Positions 4,595 through 34,667 of a DNA stretch of 35,881 bases are shown one piece after another; the stretch's first letter is position 1; each line of letters begins with the position of its first letter. This DNA comes from Akkermansiaceae bacterium (GTDB taxonomy: Bacteria; Verrucomicrobiota; Verrucomicrobiia; Verrucomicrobiales; Akkermansiaceae): positions 1 through 35,881 of the forward strand of contig CAIQXC010000046.1 in NCBI GenBank assembly GCA_903875675.1, read 5' to 3'. The notes beneath the pieces were generated by a model. It was not told the DNA's origin, made no database searches, and saw only the letters and a program-made list of their open reading frames with translations. Position numbers and translations under genes: made by a program.

Positions 4595-4653
4595 AACCGG
4601 CGAGCATCAAGCATCCGCGTGCAGACTTCGTGAGAGTCTGAGACTAATCAGAT

Positions 4654-4689
4654 AAAAAAAACCGGGCAGGAATCTAAATCCCTGTCCGG
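4654..4689 (-). terminator. Rho-independent terminator of the VPDGG-CTERM gene
   Basis: Reverse strand CCGGACAGG-N10-CCTGCCCGG (9-bp stem with one G.U) followed by T8. Confidence 0.85.
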
Positions 4690-4726
4690 CTTGAAAGTTA
4701 CGGCAAAAAGTTGCTTTACGCGCAAT

Positions 4727-5281
4727 TCAATGTTTGCCGAGCTTGCGACGAACACCGTAAAGACTCAGCAGCGAGAACCCGAACAAGGCCATCGTGGTGC
4801 CACCATCGGGGACCGCCTCAGTGCTGGAAGAGAAGCGAAACGCAGTGCCGGATCCAGTCTGAGTGGAAAAGTCCCATGTACCGACGGTGGGCTCAAAGCC
4901 ATTACCACTAACCGTCCCAGTGCCGCTTACCCAAAGCGCTTTGGACGTTTGGAATTGTATAGCCGAGGACGTAAGATCGAATGTGAATCCACCACACGTC
5001 CATAACGGCGTTACCGACCCCGAGGTAAAAGCCCAACCATCCGTGAAGGCCGCTGGAGCATGATTACTCACAAACGCAGCGAAATCTCCGGTAATCGGAG
5101 GACCAGCCTCAACACCGCTCCAAGTTATGACCTTCGTCGCCAAGGCCAAATTTGAGTTGTCAAGATTTGCTTGTCCATCGAAGGAAATCAAGCCACTGAT
5201 GAACGCGGCATTTGCCGTAGACCCGAGCGCCAATGCAATCAGCAGAGACGCGCTAAACTTTGAACAGTAACGAATTTTCAC
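4727..5281 (-). CDS. VPDGG-CTERM (VPDSG-type) exosortase-sorted secreted protein
   Basis: N-terminal signal peptide MKIRYCSKFSASLLIALALGSTANAA; C-terminal VPDGGTTMALFGFSLLSLYGVRRKLGKH = motif, TM helix, basic cluster; GTG start. Confidence 0.88.
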   Translation of the reverse strand: MKIRYCSKFSASLLIALALGSTANAAFISGLISFDGQANLDNSNLALATKVITWSGVEAGPPITGDFAAFVSNHAPAAFTDGWAFTSGSVTPLWTCGGFTFDLTSSAIQFQTSKALWVSGTGTVSGNGFEPTVGTWDFSTQTGSGTAFRFSSSTEAVPDGGTTMALFGFSLLSLYGVRRKLGKH

Positions 5282-5353
5282 TGGAATAGTTTGTTGTTTG
5301 GATTGAGCTAGGGATTCTCCCGAAAGTGGGTGACTTGCTCTCGATAGATTTCA

Positions 5354-5369
5354 AGCAAAAGCCGTGCCA
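5354..5369 (-). promoter_or_regulatory. Sigma54 (RpoN) -24/-12 promoter
   Basis: Reverse strand TGGCACGGCTTTTGCT fits TGGCACG-N4-TTGC(A/T) at every fixed position; about 70 nt upstream of the VPDGG-CTERM gene, same orientation. Confidence 0.85.
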
Positions 5370-5542
5370 GAAGATTCATACATACTTGTATACCTCTGAT
5401 TGTTAATGATTTAGGGCTATCTAATATATTCCAATTGATATCGGATGCATGCCGTATGGAAAGATTCTCATCAAAATGTGTAAACATATCCGACACAAAT
5501 GCAGTTGGAACGAACTAAAGATTTATCACATCCCATATATAT

Positions 5543-5570
5543 CAGGATGACGGCTTCCGCCGCCATCCTG
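5543..5570 (-). terminator. Long hairpin downstream of the VPDSG-CTERM gene
   Basis: CAGGATGACGGC-TTCC-GCCGCCATCCTG, 12-bp arms with one mismatch; not followed by a clear U-tract. Confidence 0.45.
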
Positions 5571-5618
5571 TATGTAATTCCTTGGTTGAATGAAAACACA
5601 CTGCCACCGTGGGCAGCT

Positions 5619-6500
5619 TCAGGCCGATTTCAGCTTGCGGTTAAGCCCAGCCAGAACAAGCATGGTCAATGCCAAAAGGGAGACCGTGGTCCCGGAATCG
5701 GGCACTGAGGGATTGGTTCCGGGGTTACCACTGCCGGCGTGAAGATTGGAAATAAATATCCCGCTATCCAGGATATGGTCATTCACGTCTGCAAGCTCAA
5801 AAATGAGCGTATGAGCTCCAGCTGAGAGATTTGTTGCAGTAAACGTCGTCAAAGCCAAAAGGCCGTGCGGATCGGCGAACGCCGTATTGGTATCGTCGGT
5901 GGTCAACGCACTCGCGAAGGTGTTACCCACCTGAACCGCGTTATTGCTGGAGTCGAAGACAATCTGATCGATAGTCGAAGTTCCGTCCAAGAATGCCACG
6001 AAAGCGTCTGTGAAATTGCTTGTGTACTCTGGAAATTCGACTGAGCCGAAAATGAATTGGAAACCGATCTGGCTGGCGGCAGCCAAGGTAAAACAAACTT
6101 GAAGAGCGGCCACGTCATTGGAGTTGCTGAAGTTTGTGATGTGTCCGGGACCGTAGGCATTGAATTCGGTCGTCCCACCAACTCCCGTGTTGGTGCTCGG
6201 CGTGGTATAGGCCGCCTGCAAGCCGTTATTAGACATTGGTGTGACCTGCAAGGCTTGACCGGTCGACATGACAATACCATCCCCGATAGTGACAGGGAAG
6301 GAAGCAAACCCCGAATAGCTCCCAAACTGACTATCTGCCCCATTGATCACGTTTGCCGAAGTGATTGACAGTCCACCACCTCCTCCTAGCGAGGTCGAGA
6401 GTACAGCAGAACTTGTGGTTTGGACAATTGTCAGACCCGAGGCCATATTTACGGCAATGATCGGACAGATTACAGATGTTAATGCCTCAATGATTTTCAT
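5619..6500 (-). CDS. VPDSG-CTERM protein with choice-of-anchor-L-like domain
   Basis: Signal peptide; GDGIVMSTGQALQV...FTLAAASQIGFQFIFGSVEFPEYTSNFTDAFVAFLDG; C-terminus VPDSGTTVSLLALTMLVLAGLNRKLKSA. Confidence 0.92.
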   Translation of the reverse strand: MKIIEALTSVICPIIAVNMASGLTIVQTTSSAVLSTSLGGGGGLSITSANVINGADSQFGSYSGFASFPVTIGDGIVMSTGQALQVTPMSNNGLQAAYTTPSTNTGVGGTTEFNAYGPGHITNFSNSNDVAALQVCFTLAAASQIGFQFIFGSVEFPEYTSNFTDAFVAFLDGTSTIDQIVFDSSNNAVQVGNTFASALTTDDTNTAFADPHGLLALTTFTATNLSAGAHTLIFELADVNDHILDSGIFISNLHAGSGNPGTNPSVPDSGTTVSLLALTMLVLAGLNRKLKSA

Positions 6501-6632
6501 AGTCGTTGGGTGAGTCGGGCTCTACATCGCATCTACCGACCGATCATATTGGAAGAACCACTTATACCGAAAATTCGAAATGAATGTATGCGAGAGAATC
6601 GGATTCAAACATTATTCGATTATTGCACGTGA

Positions 6633-6658
6633 CTTATAGACTCGATAGGAGCTATAAG
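6633..6658. repeat. Inverted repeat CTTATAG-N12-CTATAAG between the TPR and VPDSG-CTERM genes
   Basis: Read directly; 7-bp perfect arms. Confidence 0.45.
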
Positions 6659-6715
6659 TTGGCATTTCGACACATGGCGGAAGATTCCCAATCAATGGGT
6701 AAACATACCTGAAAT

Positions 6716-9700
6716 CTATTTACCGTCATTTTCAGATAACTTTCCAAGCTTCTCGAAAGTTGCTTTGGCTATGGCGGAATCAGTTTGAGAGAGTTTTTTC
6801 TGGAGTGCCAGAGTGAGCGTCTGACGGGCATCATAGGGGCGATTAGTGGCAGCCTGTGACATACCAAGAGCGAAGAGTTCCTTGCCTTTCAGCGGGCGTT
6901 TGGCGGAGATTTCTGTGAGGATTTGGGCTGCGTAATCGAACTGGCCTTTGCTGTAGCTTATGATGGCAAGAATACCGCCCAAATCGGAATCATCCTTTAG
7001 CCGTTCGCGTGCAGCGAGGGCGAGTCTTTCCGCTGCATCAAGCTGTGTTGGATCATCGAGATAGACCCAGGCAAGGGCCTTTCGAGCGGGGTCGAACTGA
7101 GGGTATACCTCAAGTACCTTGGTATAGAATGGAAGCGGGCTGCCCCCTGCCAACTCTAGCAACTCTGCACGAACCATTAGGGCAGGAACATAGGCTGGAC
7201 TGGCCACCAGCTTATTCTCAATCAAAGCAGTCATGCAAGGGTCCGCTGCGGCTCTCGGGTCGGTCAGGGCGAGAAATTCCTTCGCATCTGCCATCCGGGC
7301 GGGATAACATAGGGCAAGTTTCCCTGCGATGGCGCGGGCGTCGGAAACTCGGCCAGTACTGTATGCAGCCCATGCGTAATCATATTGGACTCCGGAGTCC
7401 TCTGGGAGGGCACGGGCGGCTTCCGCCAGCAGGTTGTAGGCTGCATCATGCTTACCCATTCGGAAAAGTGATTTGCCGAGAGAAGCTGCTGAGTGCGGGC
7501 TTTGCGGTGCGAGTTTTCGGGCTTGGTTAGATGCGGCAAGTGCCTTTTCAGGTTGGTTGAGAGCGGATGCATACACATCGGCCTGTTCGAGATAAGCCTC
7601 TACGAGGTCAGGGTTGATGGCAATGGCTTTTTGATAGGCACCGAGGGCCTCTTGCGGGCGGCCTGCAGTAGCGAGTTTCTTAGCCAAGAGCATCATTAGA
7701 ACGACATCCTTGGGGGCTTCTTTGATCCGCTCTTCAAGGGTGGCTAGGTCCAAGTGATCGCCATCACGAAGAACGGCAAGGTGCCTCGCAGCCTGATCCC
7801 TTTCAGGAAACGCGCAGGAGATCGTTAGCGCTGTTTCGAAGGCGGCAATGGCTTCCGGCGTTTGATGCATCATGTAGTATGCCATCGCTAGATGGTACTG
7901 CACCGAAGCCACTCCTGGCAGATGGCTCACAGCCTCCCGCAAGAGTGGAAGTGCCTGGTGATAGTCGCTTCGGAGCCAGAGTATCCAGCCATAGGTATCG
8001 CAGATCGATGGGTCGTCAGGGGCGATCAGTCGGGCTTTTCGGGCGTTTTCCACTGCCTTGTCGAGATTCCCCGGAGTCGTCAAATCAATATAGGCCATAT
8101 TGTTGTATGCAGGCGCAAAGTTAGGCGACAACTTCGTCATTTTTTCGAAGCATGTTCTCGCCTCATCGAGGCACCCGAGTTTCATAAGAAGCGTGCCATG
8201 GCTCATCTGAACAGACAGGTTGTTAGGATATACTTCTATAAGTTTCTCAATTCTCTCAAGCGCCTGTTTCGATCGTCCGTCATTGCTCTGAATTGTCACT
8301 AATATGCCATAAGCCTGGACATCGTCCGGTTTAAGTCGGATGGTATATTCAGCTTCAATCTCGGCTTCTTTGAACTCTTTCCTGATATAGCAGAGCTGGG
8401 CTTTGAAGAAGTGGGCCTGCGCAGAGTCTGGATGGGTGGCTAGATAAGTATCAAGGCGTTCCAAAGCCTCTGCGCTCTTACCTTCCTGCTCGTCGAGCGT
8501 GACCAACTGAAGCACCGCTCTGATCGGGTCAGACGTATGTTCTAGGAGCTGCTCAAAGATGGCTCGAGCCTCGGCAGCTTTTCCTTGGGCACGTAGCAGT
8601 TGACCGAGTCGCAACTGCAGGTCTTCGTCCTTGGGCAATAATGTGGTTTGCTGCTCAACAATTGCGACAGCCTCATCGAGGCGGTTGGCGGCGGTGTAGG
8701 CTGCCACCAGCAGATCCTGAGCAGAGCGGTTTAGGGGATCAATGACGAGTAGCGGTTCGACGAGGCGGATTGCCTCTCCGGGGCGGCCGTCTTTTAGATA
8801 AAGACTGGAGCGCAGCAGGGTTGCTTCAGACTGCCCAGGCACGAGGGTGAGCACATGGTCTAGGGTGGATGTGGCTTTGAGGAGATTTTCAGCTGAGAGA
8901 TAAGCGTCGGCGAGGGCGAGTTCAACCTTCGGACGTGACGGGAATGTGGTGGTGAGTTTCTCGAGCAACGCCGCTGCCTTCGCTGGTTCCTTGCTCCGCT
9001 GCCAAAGCGCGGCTTGAACGAGAACTGCTTCGATATCCAGCGGACTTTTTGCTAGCACCTTGGATACATTTTCCGACGCCTCGGCATCTCTACCGCCCTT
9101 ATACGCGATTTGTGCTAGAAGCCTCCAGTTCGGCAGGTAGTCTGGAGCCGAACAGGTTGCATCCTTGAGCACCACGACTGCGTCGGCCCCGCGCCCAAGT
9201 TCAATGAGAAGCTTGGCATAGGTGCCACGCTCGCTGGAACGCGGACCTGCGAGATCTGAGGCTTTCTTCATTGGTACGAGAGCTCTTTCAGGCTGTTGGT
9301 TCACCCTGTGGAGCGCAGCTTTCAAGGCTAAGCCACGGACAAGATTTGGGGCGATTTCAAGAACCCGCTCCACTGTACGGGTGCCGGCTTCAAGGTTGCC
9401 CCGGCGCAATTCGATAAGGGCGGATGCCAGCATGACCGGGGCCTTGTTGCCGTCCTTTGCACGTGTAATCCGAACCTCGCACTCGGTCATAGCCTCGGGA
9501 GTGAGCGAGTTTTCAGCGAGCAACATCAAGGCCTCGCCATGGGTCGGGCTACGGTCGAGAACCTCAAAAATCTCCTTCCTACCGTCTGCAGTGAAACCGA
9601 GTTCTATATATGCGAACGCTAGGTTGACTCCGATCTGGTCATCAGTGGAAAGTTGACTCTTTGCAGCCGATAGAATCCGCCCTCCTTCAAGCAATGCCCC

Positions 9701-9930
9701 CTGCCGTATCCAAATCAAACCGAGCCCCTTAAGCGCCTGCGGATGTCCGGGTTCCAGCTTCAGTACATTCTTGAATTCAATTTCGGCAACGCGTCATCGC
9801 CTTTCGCGAAATATTCCTTGGCTGCGTCAAGCTTGCCTGCTGCCTTGGCTTTCTTGGTGCATCCGCACGGAAGGGTTGCAAGCAACAGTGCGACTGCCGT
9901 GCCAATTAGGAAATGTTTTACAATCTTCAT
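6716..9930 (-). CDS. prsT: PEP-CTERM/exosortase-system TPR-repeat lipoprotein PrsT-like; reading frame broken by a -1 shift near 9790-9800
   Basis: N-terminus in one frame (MKIVKHFLIGTAVALLLATLPCGCTKKAKAAGKLDAAKEYFAKGDDA, lipobox) and continuation in the next frame (AEIEFKNVLKLEPGHPQALKGLGLIWIRQGALLEGG... ~1000 aa of TPRs). ORF track splits it as 9760..9993 and 6716..9718. Confidence 0.82.
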
Positions 9931-9982
9931 GTGTCGTAGAATATATTGATCAGTGGACATAGTCATGTTAGAGTTGTTATTT

Positions 9983-11413
9983 TCAGAGATCATCTAAACG
10001 AGCGTCGAGGTTTCGGTTCCTGGAGATGCCGAGTTTGTTCAGGAGTTCGTAGAAGGTCGGGCGGCTGATGCCCAGTGCCTTGGCGGCGGAGGAAACATTT
10101 CCGCCATGCTGTTCGATGGCCACAGCGACCATGTCTCTCTCAAGATGTTCTCGGGCCTGCTTGAGGCTCTGGGAAATATGGGCACCATTCCTGTGGCGCG
10201 GGCCATCGGATTCAGCTAGGCAAGAGGCAGGGTAAACTGACGTTACGAGTTCAAGATCCATCTCGGTGATTTCGCGCTCATCGGCCATGACCACGGCGCG
10301 TTGGATTCTATTTTGAAGTTCCCGAACGTTGCCCGCCCAATAATGTCTCATGATCGCCTGTAACGCGCTGGAACTGAACTCCAATGCGTCCCGCCCGTGC
10401 TGCACACCAAAACGCTTGAGAAAGTCTCTTGCCACAAGGAGGATATCTTCGCCCCGATCGCGCAATGGTGGCAGTTTGCACGCAACCACCGCCAGACGAA
10501 AATACAGGTCCTCGCGAAATCGCCCTGCCGCAAGCGCCTTGGCAAGGTCAACATGGGTCGCCGCAAGCACTCGCGCCTCCACTTCGATTTCCAACCGCCC
10601 ACCCACTCGTTGAATGCGTTTCTCCTGAAGATAACGCAACAGTTTCACCTGGATCGGCGGCGGAAGGTCACCAATCTCGTCAAGGAACAATGTTCCTCCG
10701 GCAGCGGTTTCAACCAGTCCGACTCTCTGGCTGTTAGCTCCTGTAAAGGAACCCTTTTCATAGCCAAACAGCTCGCTTTCGATGAGGTTCTCAGGGATTG
10801 CGTTGCAGTTGATCGCCACGAAAGGCCCGGCCTTGAACGAGCTTCTGCGATGGATCGCGTTAGCGACCATTTCCTTGCCGGTGCCGCTTTCACCGAGAAT
10901 GAGGACAGGAACATTGGACTTCGCGACCTTGATTACGGTTTTAAAGACCTCCTGCATTACCTCACTCCCGCCGAGCATGCCCTCAAATATGTCCGGCCGC
11001 TCCCCATCCTGCATGCGTCGATAGTCCCGCTCTAGTTTGCTCACATAAACGCACCGCTCTAGCAATACCGTGAGTTGCCTGAGGTCCAGCGGCTTGTAGA
11101 GGAAATCATAAGCACCAGCGCCGATGGCCCTGATCGCGTTCACTCGTTCGCTCTGGCCTGAGATGATAATGATCTTCGCCAGACGATCAAGCGTAAGCAT
11201 CCCTGCTAGAGTGGCCATTCCTTCGTTTGTGTCGTTGGGGCTCGGCGGCAGTCCCAAGTCGAGCAGCACCACCTCGGGCCGCTGTTTGCGAAAGGCCACA
11301 AGGGCGCTCTTGCGGTCGGCCGCCATGGCTACTTCGTAGCCGTCCGCCACCGCCCACTTCATTTGGGTTCGGATTTCCTCGTCATCGTCGATGATTAGGA
11401 GTTTAGGTTTCAT
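9983..11413 (-). CDS. prsR: PrsR-like sigma54-dependent response regulator (receiver + AAA+ + Fis HTH)
   Basis: MKPKLLIIDDDEEIRTQMKWAV; GESGTGKEMVANAIH Walker A; GSFTGA (GAFTGA-like loop); GGTLFLDEIGDLP; C-terminal GGNVSSAAKALGISRPTFYELLNKLGI. Start set at Met 11413. Confidence 0.92.
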   Translation of the reverse strand: MKPKLLIIDDDEEIRTQMKWAVADGYEVAMAADRKSALVAFRKQRPEVVLLDLGLPPSPNDTNEGMATLAGMLTLDRLAKIIIISGQSERVNAIRAIGAGAYDFLYKPLDLRQLTVLLERCVYVSKLERDYRRMQDGERPDIFEGMLGGSEVMQEVFKTVIKVAKSNVPVLILGESGTGKEMVANAIHRRSSFKAGPFVAINCNAIPENLIESELFGYEKGSFTGANSQRVGLVETAAGGTLFLDEIGDLPPPIQVKLLRYLQEKRIQRVGGRLEIEVEARVLAATHVDLAKALAAGRFREDLYFRLAVVACKLPPLRDRGEDILLVARDFLKRFGVQHGRDALEFSSSALQAIMRHYWAGNVRELQNRIQRAVVMADEREITEMDLELVTSVYPASCLAESDGPRHRNGAHISQSLKQAREHLERDMVAVAIEQHGGNVSSAAKALGISRPTFYELLNKLGISRNRNLDARLDDL

Positions 11414-13518
11414 GGCAGCAGTTGATTTGCTTGGGAATGGTGGCGAAGTGGAAACCAGATTGCAAAACGAGTGCCCATTCCCGGCTCGCTTTTCACAGCG
11501 ATGGTTCCGCCATGTGCCTCGACAATTTTCCGGCATTGAAACATGCCGATGCCCAGACCGTTTGTTTTTGTGCTATGGAACGGGCGGAACAGCAAGTTTT
11601 TGATAAATTTCGGGCTCATCCCGCAACCGCTGTCGGCCACCGCAAACTCCACGCCTTTGGCCTCCAGGCACGTGGCGACTTTCACTTCGCCGCTGCCATT
11701 AAGTGCTTCGCGGGCATTGACAACGAGATTCGTCACTACGCTTCGCATTGCCTCTGCGTCAAGGGCCAGCAATGGAACCGGCCGCAAGTCCCGCTCTAAA
11801 TGTCTCTTTCCGTCCATAGTGGTTTCCAATCCGTCGAGCACCTCGGCACACAGCAGATCCAGTCTGCAAGGGACCTTGATCAATTGAACTTCGCGGCGCA
11901 AGCTGCTCAGTTTCAAGATCAATTGGTTAATCCGCTCAACGGTACGTCCAACCCCTTGAATCGCATCTGAACGAAATTTGGGATCATCAAAGTGAATCGG
12001 CATGTTTTGCAGCATCAGGCTCAATCCGGTGGCTGCGTTCTTGAGATCATGAACAAAAAAGGTCGATAGAGTTTGAAATGACTCCAACTCCTTAGCCTGC
12101 AAAACCTCGTCACTCAGCGCGCAATTCAACAGACCACCCGCCAACTGATCTCCGATACATTTGAGCAAATCCAACTCCTCGTGGCTGTACGGCACCCCGT
12201 TGACCCGATCAACCAACACCATCAAACCGACCAAGCGCTCCGCCGCTACCAGCGGAACCGCCAAGCTGTCTCCGCCGTGCTGAAATTTCTTGGGACAAGA
12301 CTTCCGGAAGACATCCGCCCATGCATCAGGCTCAAGTTCTAGAACAATAGGCCGTCCGCGCCTGGCAAGCCGCCGCAAGCTCTCGACATCGATTTGCAAG
12401 GCAACATGCCCCAATCTTATCTCCGTCGAGTGTAGCCACTCCCAGCTCAATGCCTCTGAGTCCACCCCGAACACAGTGACACCGAGGACATGAAAACTCT
12501 CGGAAATAACATTCGCCGCATTTTTCCCCAAAGTAACCGCGTCGAGTACGCTTGAGGTCCGCCGTGTGAACTCCGTCCAGATTTCTCGAAAATCATGTTC
12601 CGGCCGCCGGAAGTGACAACTGATGAAACGACGCAGAGCCATCCTGAAACGCTCCGACAACATCATGACTGCCACACCCACCACGCCAAGCAACAATACC
12701 AGCGCCTGTGCAGGAAAATTGGCAATCCCTCCCAGCAAAGCAACCGACTGCGCCAAAAGACCGACGATAATGAAATAGGCGCCAGCCAAGATCACCGTGA
12801 CCGACCCCTGTAGCACCGCCCGTGAAGGATAGATATCGAGTGCCCCAAAGCTCGACCTCACCTGCCCGACGCCGTTCAGGATGCACCCGAGGAACAATGA
12901 CACGAGTGTCAAATTGGCAACCTCGGAACGGTAACCCGAGAATAGCAGCATCTGGCTCAAGGTGTAAACCCTCACCCCGAAGATCAGCCCTACCCCGAGA
13001 ATCAGATACTTGATCCTCCAGCGAGCCATTCCCACCGAAGCCCGGAAGGTCTTTTCGAAATTGACCAGAATCGCCAATATCGCTGTTATCACCACCATCA
13101 CCCAAGCCTTGCCTGCCCAACCCAATTGAATCGCCAGTGCATTGCTGCTCTCCGCCGACTCAAATACCCGCTGCGGAAAGCCAAATATCAAGGCCACCGG
13201 GAGGAGCCATGCCACCACCAAGAACCACTTCCAGTGGCTCAAGAACTCGCCTTGGTTGCCCCGTGCATAAACCAGACTGAAGCTCAGCCAGATGCCTGGA
13301 TCGAGAGATTTGAGCAGCAAGCCTCTCCACAACCATGTGCTGATCTCCGCAGCGCTCGCTGCTTTCGCAACCTGGTAATCCAAGCCCAACTCCGCCGCCA
13401 GCAGCAGCATTCCTGTGAAAAATAGCCAACTCGCCACCGCTGTCGGACGAAAAACTATTGCTATCGTTCCGCAAGAAAGACAAAGCACAAAAACCACCAG
13501 TGAAAAGATAACCTGCAT
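11410..13518 (-). CDS. prsK: PrsK-like membrane sensor histidine kinase with GAF domain
   Basis: Multiple N-terminal TM helices, GAF-like region, FVHDLKNAATGLSLMLQN H-box, NLVVNAREAL, ADSGCGMS, GLGIGMFQCRKIVEAHGG, GTRFAIWFP. 4-nt ATGA overlap with the regulator. ATG at 13518 preferred over TTG at 13545. Confidence 0.9.
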   Translation of the reverse strand: MQVIFSLVVFVLCLSCGTIAIVFRPTAVASWLFFTGMLLLAAELGLDYQVAKAASAAEISTWLWRGLLLKSLDPGIWLSFSLVYARGNQGEFLSHWKWFLVVAWLLPVALIFGFPQRVFESAESSNALAIQLGWAGKAWVMVVITAILAILVNFEKTFRASVGMARWRIKYLILGVGLIFGVRVYTLSQMLLFSGYRSEVANLTLVSLFLGCILNGVGQVRSSFGALDIYPSRAVLQGSVTVILAGAYFIIVGLLAQSVALLGGIANFPAQALVLLLGVVGVAVMMLSERFRMALRRFISCHFRRPEHDFREIWTEFTRRTSSVLDAVTLGKNAANVISESFHVLGVTVFGVDSEALSWEWLHSTEIRLGHVALQIDVESLRRLARRGRPIVLELEPDAWADVFRKSCPKKFQHGGDSLAVPLVAAERLVGLMVLVDRVNGVPYSHEELDLLKCIGDQLAGGLLNCALSDEVLQAKELESFQTLSTFFVHDLKNAATGLSLMLQNMPIHFDDPKFRSDAIQGVGRTVERINQLILKLSSLRREVQLIKVPCRLDLLCAEVLDGLETTMDGKRHLERDLRPVPLLALDAEAMRSVVTNLVVNAREALNGSGEVKVATCLEAKGVEFAVADSGCGMSPKFIKNLLFRPFHSTKTNGLGIGMFQCRKIVEAHGGTIAVKSEPGMGTRFAIWFPLRHHSQANQLLP

Positions 13519-13547
13519 CGGAACAACCCAATCTTTAGCCGCCAAAT

Positions 13548-17866: not shown

Positions 17867-18862
17867 TCAGCAGCCTGGGTGCAGTGTGCAGCTCGACTCG
17901 GAATTCTCTCCGTTCTGTGATCGAACTGTTCGATTCTCTCGCTGGCGGAACCAAATCGCCGTCAGCAGCAGCGGTGCAAGTGAGACCGCGAAAAACAAAG
18001 GACCGCCCTTGTGGTGAATCCAACTGTCGATCATCCGAGGACCGATATGGACGCAAACTTGCCCGATAACAAGCACCCTGATGGCATTGCGGAAGATTCC
18101 AAGCGGAATCACCATTGCCATCAGCGAACACCGGTGCCATGTTGACCTAAGAAACATATAGGAAGCTATCAGGCTGGTTATAAAGAGCACCAGCGAAGAG
18201 CGAATCCCACTGCAATTCCGGGCCACTTCAATCGTCATTCCCGGTAATTCAAGCACCTGGCCATTCCGTAGAACAGGCGTTCCTAACATTTGAAACAGCA
18301 CATTCGCCAAGGATACAGAGGCACGCATCAACAAGTCTTCAAAGTACACCACAGTGATGTCGGGCAGCGGCACCATGAACACCAGAACGCAGAAGGGGAA
18401 AACAAGCACGCGCATCCAGGTCACCCCTAGGAGGGCAAATCCGCCTGCCACCAATAGTAGCGCGTAACAAGCAGCAGCCTGCGTCATCGCGGCACTTTGA
18501 CCGCATCCAGCGGAGCCTGCTAGCGAAGGCCAGAAGAATAGTGTCACTGCAGCAATTGAAAAAATTAGTCCGCCACAAACCGAACCACCCAGTGATCCTC
18601 CCCGCTCCCGTGGCAGTGAGGCATGCTTGAGCGATGCCAAATAGAGTGAGACAACCGGAATAAGCAAAATGTACGAGTGTAGGTCCTTCTTCATCGCATA
18701 GCTGCAAAGGGCAACTAACGGCCCCCTGTACGCCAGTGACAAAATTACCACATACATGAAATATCTAAACAGCCTTCGGTCCGCCCACCACGCCGCAAGG
18801 GCATCAGTTTCGGTCATGTCAATCTCAGCCTTGGGTTCCGGCAAGTCGCGCTCTCCTTCCAT
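17867..18862 (-). CDS. xrtC: Exosortase, probably exosortase C (VPDSG-CTERM type)
   Basis: Multi-TM protein with exosortase catalytic signature: NCSGIRSS (Cys), IFRNAIRV (Arg), HHKGG (His). Type C assignment rests on VPD(S/G)G-CTERM cargo in the same window. Confidence 0.88.
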   Translation of the reverse strand: MEGERDLPEPKAEIDMTETDALAAWWADRRLFRYFMYVVILSLAYRGPLVALCSYAMKKDLHSYILLIPVVSLYLASLKHASLPRERGGSLGGSVCGGLIFSIAAVTLFFWPSLAGSAGCGQSAAMTQAAACYALLLVAGGFALLGVTWMRVLVFPFCVLVFMVPLPDITVVYFEDLLMRASVSLANVLFQMLGTPVLRNGQVLELPGMTIEVARNCSGIRSSLVLFITSLIASYMFLRSTWHRCSLMAMVIPLGIFRNAIRVLVIGQVCVHIGPRMIDSWIHHKGGPLFFAVSLAPLLLTAIWFRQRENRTVRSQNGENSESSCTLHPGC

Positions 18863-33695: not shown

Positions 33696-34667
33696 TCAGG
33701 TATAGCCGTAGCGGCGGTTCAGATCTCCGGCGGTGGCATCGAATACCCGGAGGTCATCCCTGCTCAAGTTGGATTTCCAACGCTCGTCGAGGCTGATCTC
33801 GGAGGATGAATCCATCCGCATGCCGTTGCCGATCACGTGTTGGGTTACCGCCCTGAAGTCAAGCCTGACCTTATCGGGATCGAGATCGAGGAAAGACACG
33901 AGTCGCTTGATGGTACCTTCGGGGTTGATACAGAGGTCCTCGTAGCGAACCTCGGTCCATAGCGTAGCAGGCAGTCGAGCCGTCAAGGCGTCGCATGATT
34001 CATTGCTGCGTTTCCATGAGTTGGCTGCTGCTTTCATTGATCCGAGCGGCGGGCGACGAATGCCGGTGCCGCCACCGCGCATACTCGGATCCTTTGAGTC
34101 GGCAAAAGTCCAATCATCGGTGTAAGTGAGAGCTACCGCCCGCCCATCGCGGATTACCCGGATCACCAGCAGGTCTAGGCCAGGGATCTTCAGCAGATAT
34201 CTCAGCCGTAAGGGTACCTTTGACGAGTCGATGACGACAGCGGATCCGGTCACCTCCAGCAGTGACTCGATGAGGGCAAGGTTGCGGTCGTTGCACTCGG
34301 CCAGACGGGCATTACACATGGGTAAGAGGGAGAGTGCGAGGTCGCGGATTATCTCGAGGGTACCGCCACGGTAGACAGGTGCCAGCAGGCGACGAATGTA
34401 GGGACTATCAATCTCAAAGATGTTGGTGCCGGCCCGGGTGATCTGAAAGTCAGCATAGCCACGCGCTGCCATTGCCGTGGCAACGTGTTGCCAAAAATCG
34501 CAATCGAGGATATGCTCGCGGCAGGAACATCGATAGGAGGCAGCATCGCCCAGCGAGGTGGCCTTGAGTTCACCGGCGGTACAGGCACCCGGTTGTGCGC
34601 CGAGAAGCATCGCTAGCAGGGTGGATCCGGAGTGGCTGGCAGCTAAGAGATATGCGAGTTTTGGCAT
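33696..34667 (-). CDS. Sulfotransferase family protein
   Basis: N-terminal 5'-PSB-like loop LAASHSGSTLLAMLLGAQP; 3'-PB-like VIRVIRDGRAVALTYTDDW; VRYEDLCINPEGTIKRLVSFLDLD. Confidence 0.88.
   Translation of the reverse strand: MPKLAYLLAASHSGSTLLAMLLGAQPGACTAGELKATSLGDAASYRCSCREHILDCDFWQHVATAMAARGYADFQITRAGTNIFEIDSPYIRRLLAPVYRGGTLEIIRDLALSLLPMCNARLAECNDRNLALIESLLEVTGSAVVIDSSKVPLRLRYLLKIPGLDLLVIRVIRDGRAVALTYTDDWTFADSKDPSMRGGGTGIRRPPLGSMKAAANSWKRSNESCDALTARLPATLWTEVRYEDLCINPEGTIKRLVSFLDLDPDKVRLDFRAVTQHVIGNGMRMDSSSEISLDERWKSNLSRDDLRVFDATAGDLNRRYGYT

Follow-up and report, generated by a model that had tools for sequence, protein, structure and literature searches.

A predicted PrsR/RpoN-dependent promoter ahead of a VPDGG-CTERM gene in a Verrucomicrobiota-type bacterium

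The best-described counterpart of the promoter analysed here is the element found ahead of PEP-CTERM genes, in which a motif 1 of 17 nt, with TTTACA at its end, is followed, after a spacer of 32-92 nt (mean 62.8), by a sigma54 motif 2 that lies on average 71 nt from the start codon (Haft 2006, PMC1569441). In that work motif 1 was predicted to be the PrsR site; the phylogenetic profile of the genes carrying it matches that of PrsR, and the element was reported to be exclusive to Proteobacteria, exosortase cargo elsewhere needing elements as yet unfound (PMC1569441). A second counterpart is pepA of Aquincola tertiaricarbonis, which has a TSS-mapped TGGCAC/CTGCTT promoter that is RpoN1-dependent by experiment (PMC9850573), and a third is the VPDSG-CTERM/XrtC system (TIGR03778, TIGR04151). 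Our literature search, which covered largely papers outside subscription, returned no account of VPDSG/XrtC regulation and no paper joining exosortase, Verrucomicrobia and RpoN.

The locus lies in a stretch of 35,881 nucleotides (the window) from a genome of 6.56 Mb in 952 contigs that is 92% complete (G000). With the PEP-CTERM element of Haft (PMC1569441) it shares a 17-nt box of the form TGTCGG...TTTACA, a downstream sigma54 site with -24 (GG) and -12 (GC) elements, a start codon about 71 nt further on (72 nt in the window), monocistronic secreted cargo, and PrsK and PrsR nearby in an exopolysaccharide (EPS) cluster. It differs in its tag (VPDGG/VPDSG, not PEP), in its exosortase (XrtC-like, not XrtA), in its non-proteobacterial host and in the gap between box and promoter, which at 109 bp (77-123 bp in related genomes) exceeds the 32-92 bp of the Haft system, so that the window element is a variant. 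Aquincola pepA resembles the window in being exosortase cargo with a sigma54-type promoter and a predicted enhancer upstream, and differs in being a PEP-CTERM gene of Proteobacteria; PrsR dependence is unproven in Aquincola too (PMC9850573). As for the VPDSG-CTERM/XrtC system, the window has a tag above cut-off, XrtC as the best match of its exosortase and the catalytic residues kept, the differing point being an exosortase score of 240.8 bits against a cut-off of 300.

Two DNA elements upstream of the cargo gene

The cargo gene (4727..5281, - strand) encodes a protein of 184 aa with a signal peptide and the C-terminus VPDGGTTMALFGFSLLSLYGVRRKLGKH, which scores above the cut-offs of both PF18205 (33.1 bits, cut-off 25) and TIGR03778 (32.9 bits, cut-off 22). 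Homologues of the protein are 79, 49, 32 and 29% identical to it, and its AlphaFold model is of low confidence (pLDDT 45). Because a strong intrinsic terminator with a following T run (4659..4692, - strand; -18.6 kcal/mol, z = -4.4) lies 3' of the gene, and no sigma70-like match was found on the - strand within 4600-10050, the unit is probably monocistronic. The genome contains just two VPDSG genes, and a gap of 337 bp separates the cargo gene from its VPDSG-CTERM neighbour, which has a choice-of-anchor L domain (5619..6500, - strand).

A preliminary description of this DNA, made from the letters alone, had placed a full-consensus sigma54 promoter on the reverse strand of this gap at 5354-5369, some 70 nt before the GTG of the VPDGG-CTERM gene, and had seen none as good in front of the neighbouring gene. 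We agree on all three points: the -24/-12 site TGGCACGGCTTTTGCT (5369..5354, - strand) has 12 of the 12 specified letters of TGGCACG-N4-TTGCW, 72 nt lie between it and the GTG at 5281, and the region upstream of the neighbour yields a best composite score for box plus promoter of only 9.2 (p = 0.10). To score such sites we used matrices for box and sigma54 site that were built only from the upstream regions of proteobacterial PEP-CTERM genes, sampled from five PrsR-bearing genomes with the record labels Simplicispira, Thauera, Massilia, Malonomonas and Paraglaciecola (TIGR02915 634-753 bits in each); with these, the promoter ranks first in the window at 14.9 bits, the next site reaching 12.8.

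Pattern searches of the whole genome returned nine exact matches to TGGCACG-N4-TTGCW. When up to one mismatch was allowed the count was 121, and the reversed pattern gave 46, so that the motif is over-represented. Inspection of the translated starts placed two of the exact sites (G000:C26:761-776, L001, and G000:C523:1875-1890, L007) upstream of PII/GlnK-like and glutamine-synthetase-like genes, respectively. Genes of these two kinds are classic sigma54 targets, and the two sites, which likely belong to a nitrogen regulon, serve as positive controls. Since five of the nine exact matches, neither of these two included, fall inside long ORFs, the 16-mer has little predictive power by itself; arithmetic from the genome-wide count gives a chance of about 2e-4 for an exact match on the right strand in a gap of such length, and the site without the box is therefore only moderately significant, good yet inconclusive.

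Further upstream lies a predicted PrsR box, TGTCGGATATGTTTACA (5495..5479, - strand), which rests on pattern, proteobacterial matrix and orthologue identity and which, unseen in the preliminary description, supplies the link from PrsR to the promoter. The box has the form TGTCGGAN4TTTACA, as read ahead of proteobacterial PEP-CTERM genes, and is the window's sole exact TGT-N8-TTTACA; it precedes the sigma54 site by 126 bp start to start, both elements being exact, in the right order and in the right orientation. Judged by its letters it is the same motif as the proteobacterial boxes, among them TGTCGGAGTTTTTTACA, TGTCGGAAATATTTACA, TGTCGGATTTTTTTACA, TGTCGGATAAATTTACA and TGTCGGACTTCTTTACA, each of which is followed by a -24/-12 site, and it matches the motif 1 type of Haft. 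The proteobacterial matrix puts it top in the window at 21.3 bits (next 14.9), and the composite of box and promoter scores 36.2 bits with matrices from proteobacterial sites alone, above every one of 940 dinucleotide shuffles. The only other composite of at least 20 bits in 145 kb of DNA from the same genome overlaps this one, on the same sigma54 site. Taken together, site and box are highly significant, and they make a convincing case that this short signal is a sigma54 promoter. From the geometry of such promoters, transcription is predicted to start near 5343 (- strand), 12 nt past the GC element, with a leader of about 62 nt.

A genome of the same genus, G152, keeps the gene order EpsY-like, cargo, prsT, prsR, prsK, fn3, WecG and EPS sugar transferase. 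When the upstream DNA of the two genes is aligned, the box stands out as an identical island (TGTCGGATATGTTTACACA), 14 of 16 promoter positions are kept and the surrounding intergenic DNA has diverged, which argues for purifying selection on the box. Composite spacings of 94, 113-117, 124-130 and 139-140 bp give Rayleigh p values of about 1e-4 for an 11-bp period and 0.003 for 10.5; this helical phasing is suggestive, and we do not count it as evidence because the set consists of related sequences and was tested against several periods.

The choice-of-anchor L gene stands between prsT and the cargo promoter and is missing from the syntenic place in G152, which suggests that it is probably a later, lineage-specific insertion. 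Just 3' of prsT, before this gene, we considered TTTCAGGTATGTTTACC (6714..6698, - strand) as a second PrsR box. It is a degenerate copy (13/17) with no sigma54 site behind it, and we set it aside because a comparison of its surroundings with the real upstream region scored 30, the best of 300 shuffles reaching 29, which is borderline.

Regulatory and sorting proteins

From a PrsR-like activator in the window, the preliminary description had proposed a closed circuit running from PrsK through PrsR and RpoN to the cargo of a VPDSG/XrtC-type system, and it had staked this on an rpoN gene in the genome and on conservation of the motif upstream of orthologues. The activator is a PrsR of the NtrC type (9983..11401, - strand, counted from where the TIGR02915 match begins, the start codon not being fixed) that scores 565.1 bits, above the TIGR02915 cut-off of 502.6; it is 86% identical in G152, and its closest named match, at 57%, is from a Pedosphaera-labelled MAG, which together with the VPDSG/XrtC content points to Verrucomicrobiota as the host lineage. 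Next to it lies the sensor histidine kinase PrsK (11410..13545, - strand; TIGR02916 356.6 bits, cut-off 300). RpoN is encoded elsewhere in the genome by an intact gene (395 bits) with the RpoN box ARRTVAKYRE, and the motif is kept both in the G152 orthologue and before VPDSG genes of other genomes. The proposed circuit thus has support in the sense of a run from kinase through PrsR and RpoN to cargo. No autoregulatory site was found before prsK in the window; one is seen in a relative, G442. The assignment to a VPDSG/XrtC-type system fits the tag and the best exosortase family, and is short only in the exosortase score.

This XrtC-like exosortase (17867..18862, - strand) has TIGR04151 as by far its best exosortase family even under the cut-off, and most homologues adjoining prsKR likewise score below 300 (171.6-304); its Cys217 (CSGIRSS), Arg258/Arg262 and His283 are invariant across nine homologues. 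The rest of the window (866-35881) is an exopolysaccharide cluster with a polysaccharide export protein, glycosyltransferases, a TviC-like epimerase, a polysaccharide deacetylase, an O-antigen ligase, a polysaccharide synthesis protein and a sulfotransferase (33696-34667).

Between prsR and the choice-of-anchor L gene lies a PrsT-like TPR lipoprotein gene (6716..9930, - strand; TIGR02917), which starts with a lipoprotein signal peptide at 9930 (MKIVKHFLIGTAVALLLATLPCGC) and whose frame near 9770-9780 is off by one base relative to the long downstream ORF. That ORF lacks the N-terminus because of this frame shift, and scores 290 bits, under the cut-off of 312.2. In G152 the gene is a full-length ORF; the shift in the window is an assembly error or marks a decayed gene, and decay may have touched part of the local system. 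As a promoter of prsT we rejected TGGCACGGCAGTCGCA (9904..9889, - strand), a sigma54 site with one mismatch, which falls within the signal-peptide codons of prsT itself (MKIVKHFLIGTAVALLL).

Occurrence across the phylum

We searched 388 genomes of the phylum with the strict composite pattern TGTCG-N7-TTACA-N93..123-TGGC-N8-TGC, which occurs only once in the 6.56 Mb of the window's own genome, at the window site. The search gave 13 matches in eight genomes, against five for the reversed pattern; nine of the 13 fall in VPDSG-positive genomes, and the pattern is present in 5/15 such genomes versus 3/373 of the others (Fisher p = 2e-6). A control pattern whose -24/-12 spacer was longer by one base gave three matches, none in a VPDSG genome. 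Downstream of the 13 composites we found six VPDSG-type cargo genes (window included), a PEP-CTERM gene in G426 and, in G442, two secreted proteins, one of them clipped by a contig end, as well as prsK, recognised by homology to the window PrsK. The composite in G352, with a kinase-like ORF behind it, and those in G517 and G426:C132, which lie within ORFs, were taken as chance. When the proteobacterial matrices were applied to the DNA upstream of VPDSG genes (47 regions, 13 genomes), 20 regions lay beyond the 99th percentile set by 940 dinucleotide shuffles, where about 0.5 would be expected.

VPDSG-positive genomes are sporadic (15/388). True PrsR is found in 11 of the 388 genomes, and all 11 are VPDSG-positive (p = 2e-18); in most of them PrsKR adjoins an XrtC-like exosortase. 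In a twelfth VPDSG genome, G442, a fragment of PrsR lies where a contig ends, and the remaining three have marginal tag matches only. The element is not universal among VPDSG genes. It was not found ahead of either VPDSG gene of G027, which has PrsR, nor in 16 of the 17 scored upstream regions of G397, most of the genes with a VPDTGSTAALL tail being affected.

Proposed circuit and alternative readings

On our reading, to which we give a probability of roughly 87%, a PrsR/RpoN enhancer-dependent promoter drives the VPDGG-CTERM cargo gene. PrsK, encoded with PrsR 4.6 kb from the promoter, would phosphorylate PrsR, which would then bind the box at 5495..5479, loop over about 110 bp and remodel RpoN-RNA polymerase at 5369..5354. 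Transcription would begin near 5343 and yield a monocistronic mRNA; its product, the secreted VPDGG-CTERM protein, would be processed by the XrtC-like exosortase of the same exopolysaccharide cluster. Comparison with other genomes strongly supports this putative PrsK-PrsR-RpoN-cargo circuit, and the RpoN1-dependent pepA promoter of Aquincola (PMC9850573) also speaks for it. The sequence itself establishes the two DNA elements, how conserved and specific they are, and that the proteins are intact; PrsR binding, RpoN dependence, the start site, the signal to PrsK and sorting of this cargo by this exosortase are predicted.

The alternative that survives best, which we still think improbable, is that the sigma54 promoter is real and answers to another enhancer-binding protein, NtrC-like or similar, with TGTCGG-N5-TTTACA bound by something else. 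The genome encodes at least five further sigma54 activator domains that are complete or nearly so, and the binding specificity of PrsR is here predicted only; the box, however, is that of the proteobacterial genes whose profile matches PrsR (PMC1569441), and the PrsR-bearing and VPDSG genomes coincide. Nor is the box a general companion of sigma54 sites in this genome, since among the nine exact sites it is present (at 21.3 bits) only at 5369..5354, the other eight all scoring below 0. The recognition helix points the same way: SRPTFYEL in the window PrsR is close to the SRPTLYDL of proteobacterial PrsR, a likeness common to both phyla, and unlike that of the two paralogues from the same genome that we aligned.

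Less credible still is a chance -24/-12 match, in which case a sigma70 promoter, or read-through out of prsT and the choice-of-anchor L gene, would serve the cargo gene. Such a reading can draw on the exact matches inside long ORFs and on the VPDTGSTAALL-tailed genes of G397, yet it must account for a composite that is unique in the genome, kept in the orthologue and recurrent upstream of VPDSG genes, and for a - strand that has no sigma70-like match nearby. Equally hard to credit is an element conserved merely through a recent cross-phylum transfer of the exosortase/EPS module, with regulation no longer live here, because although the sporadic distribution and the broken prsT frame would suit it, the box has stayed identical to that of G152 in diverged intergenic DNA, and PrsR is only 53-59% identical among the VPDSG-group genomes outside the same genus.

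On the PrsR/RpoN reading, a surface protein sorted by an exosortase would be turned on in a Verrucomicrobiota-type bacterium by a two-component circuit previously described only in Proteobacteria. Box and promoter are now seen in a VPDSG/XrtC system outside that phylum, where activator, kinase and exosortase are encoded close by and the sigma factor at another locus. The element thereby offers a regulon that can be tested, a likely binding site of PrsR and a means of predicting cargo without the sorting tag. Whether the pair is a cross-phylum code for exosortase cargo, independent of tag (PEP, VPDSG or variant) and of exosortase type, we regard as evenly balanced; if true, such a code could locate exosortase cargo that has gone unrecognised.

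Several composites in other genomes have features of their own. Three stand 5' of secreted proteins tagged RVADGGMT (L306 4229-5034), SVPDGLST (L306 10510-9617) and SVPDGAST (L314 6545-7541); some such proteins with off-consensus tags are not listed by the VPDSG family model, so that the element can find unrecognised cargo. In G442 a composite of 37.0 bits lies immediately 5' of prsK (L318 6414-6557, G442:C63), which suggests autoregulation there. The PEP-CTERM gene of G426 (L320 495-650, G426:C120) has two PrsR boxes, 140 and 66 bp start to start from the promoter, and among the matches listed for this genome no PrsR is over the cut-off. In G397, exact PrsR boxes occur as back-to-back pairs on opposite strands at three places (538818-538853, 543176-543211 and 2213593-2213628), in each of which a sigma54 site stands 115 bp away from the forward box, followed by a VPDTGPG-tagged gene.
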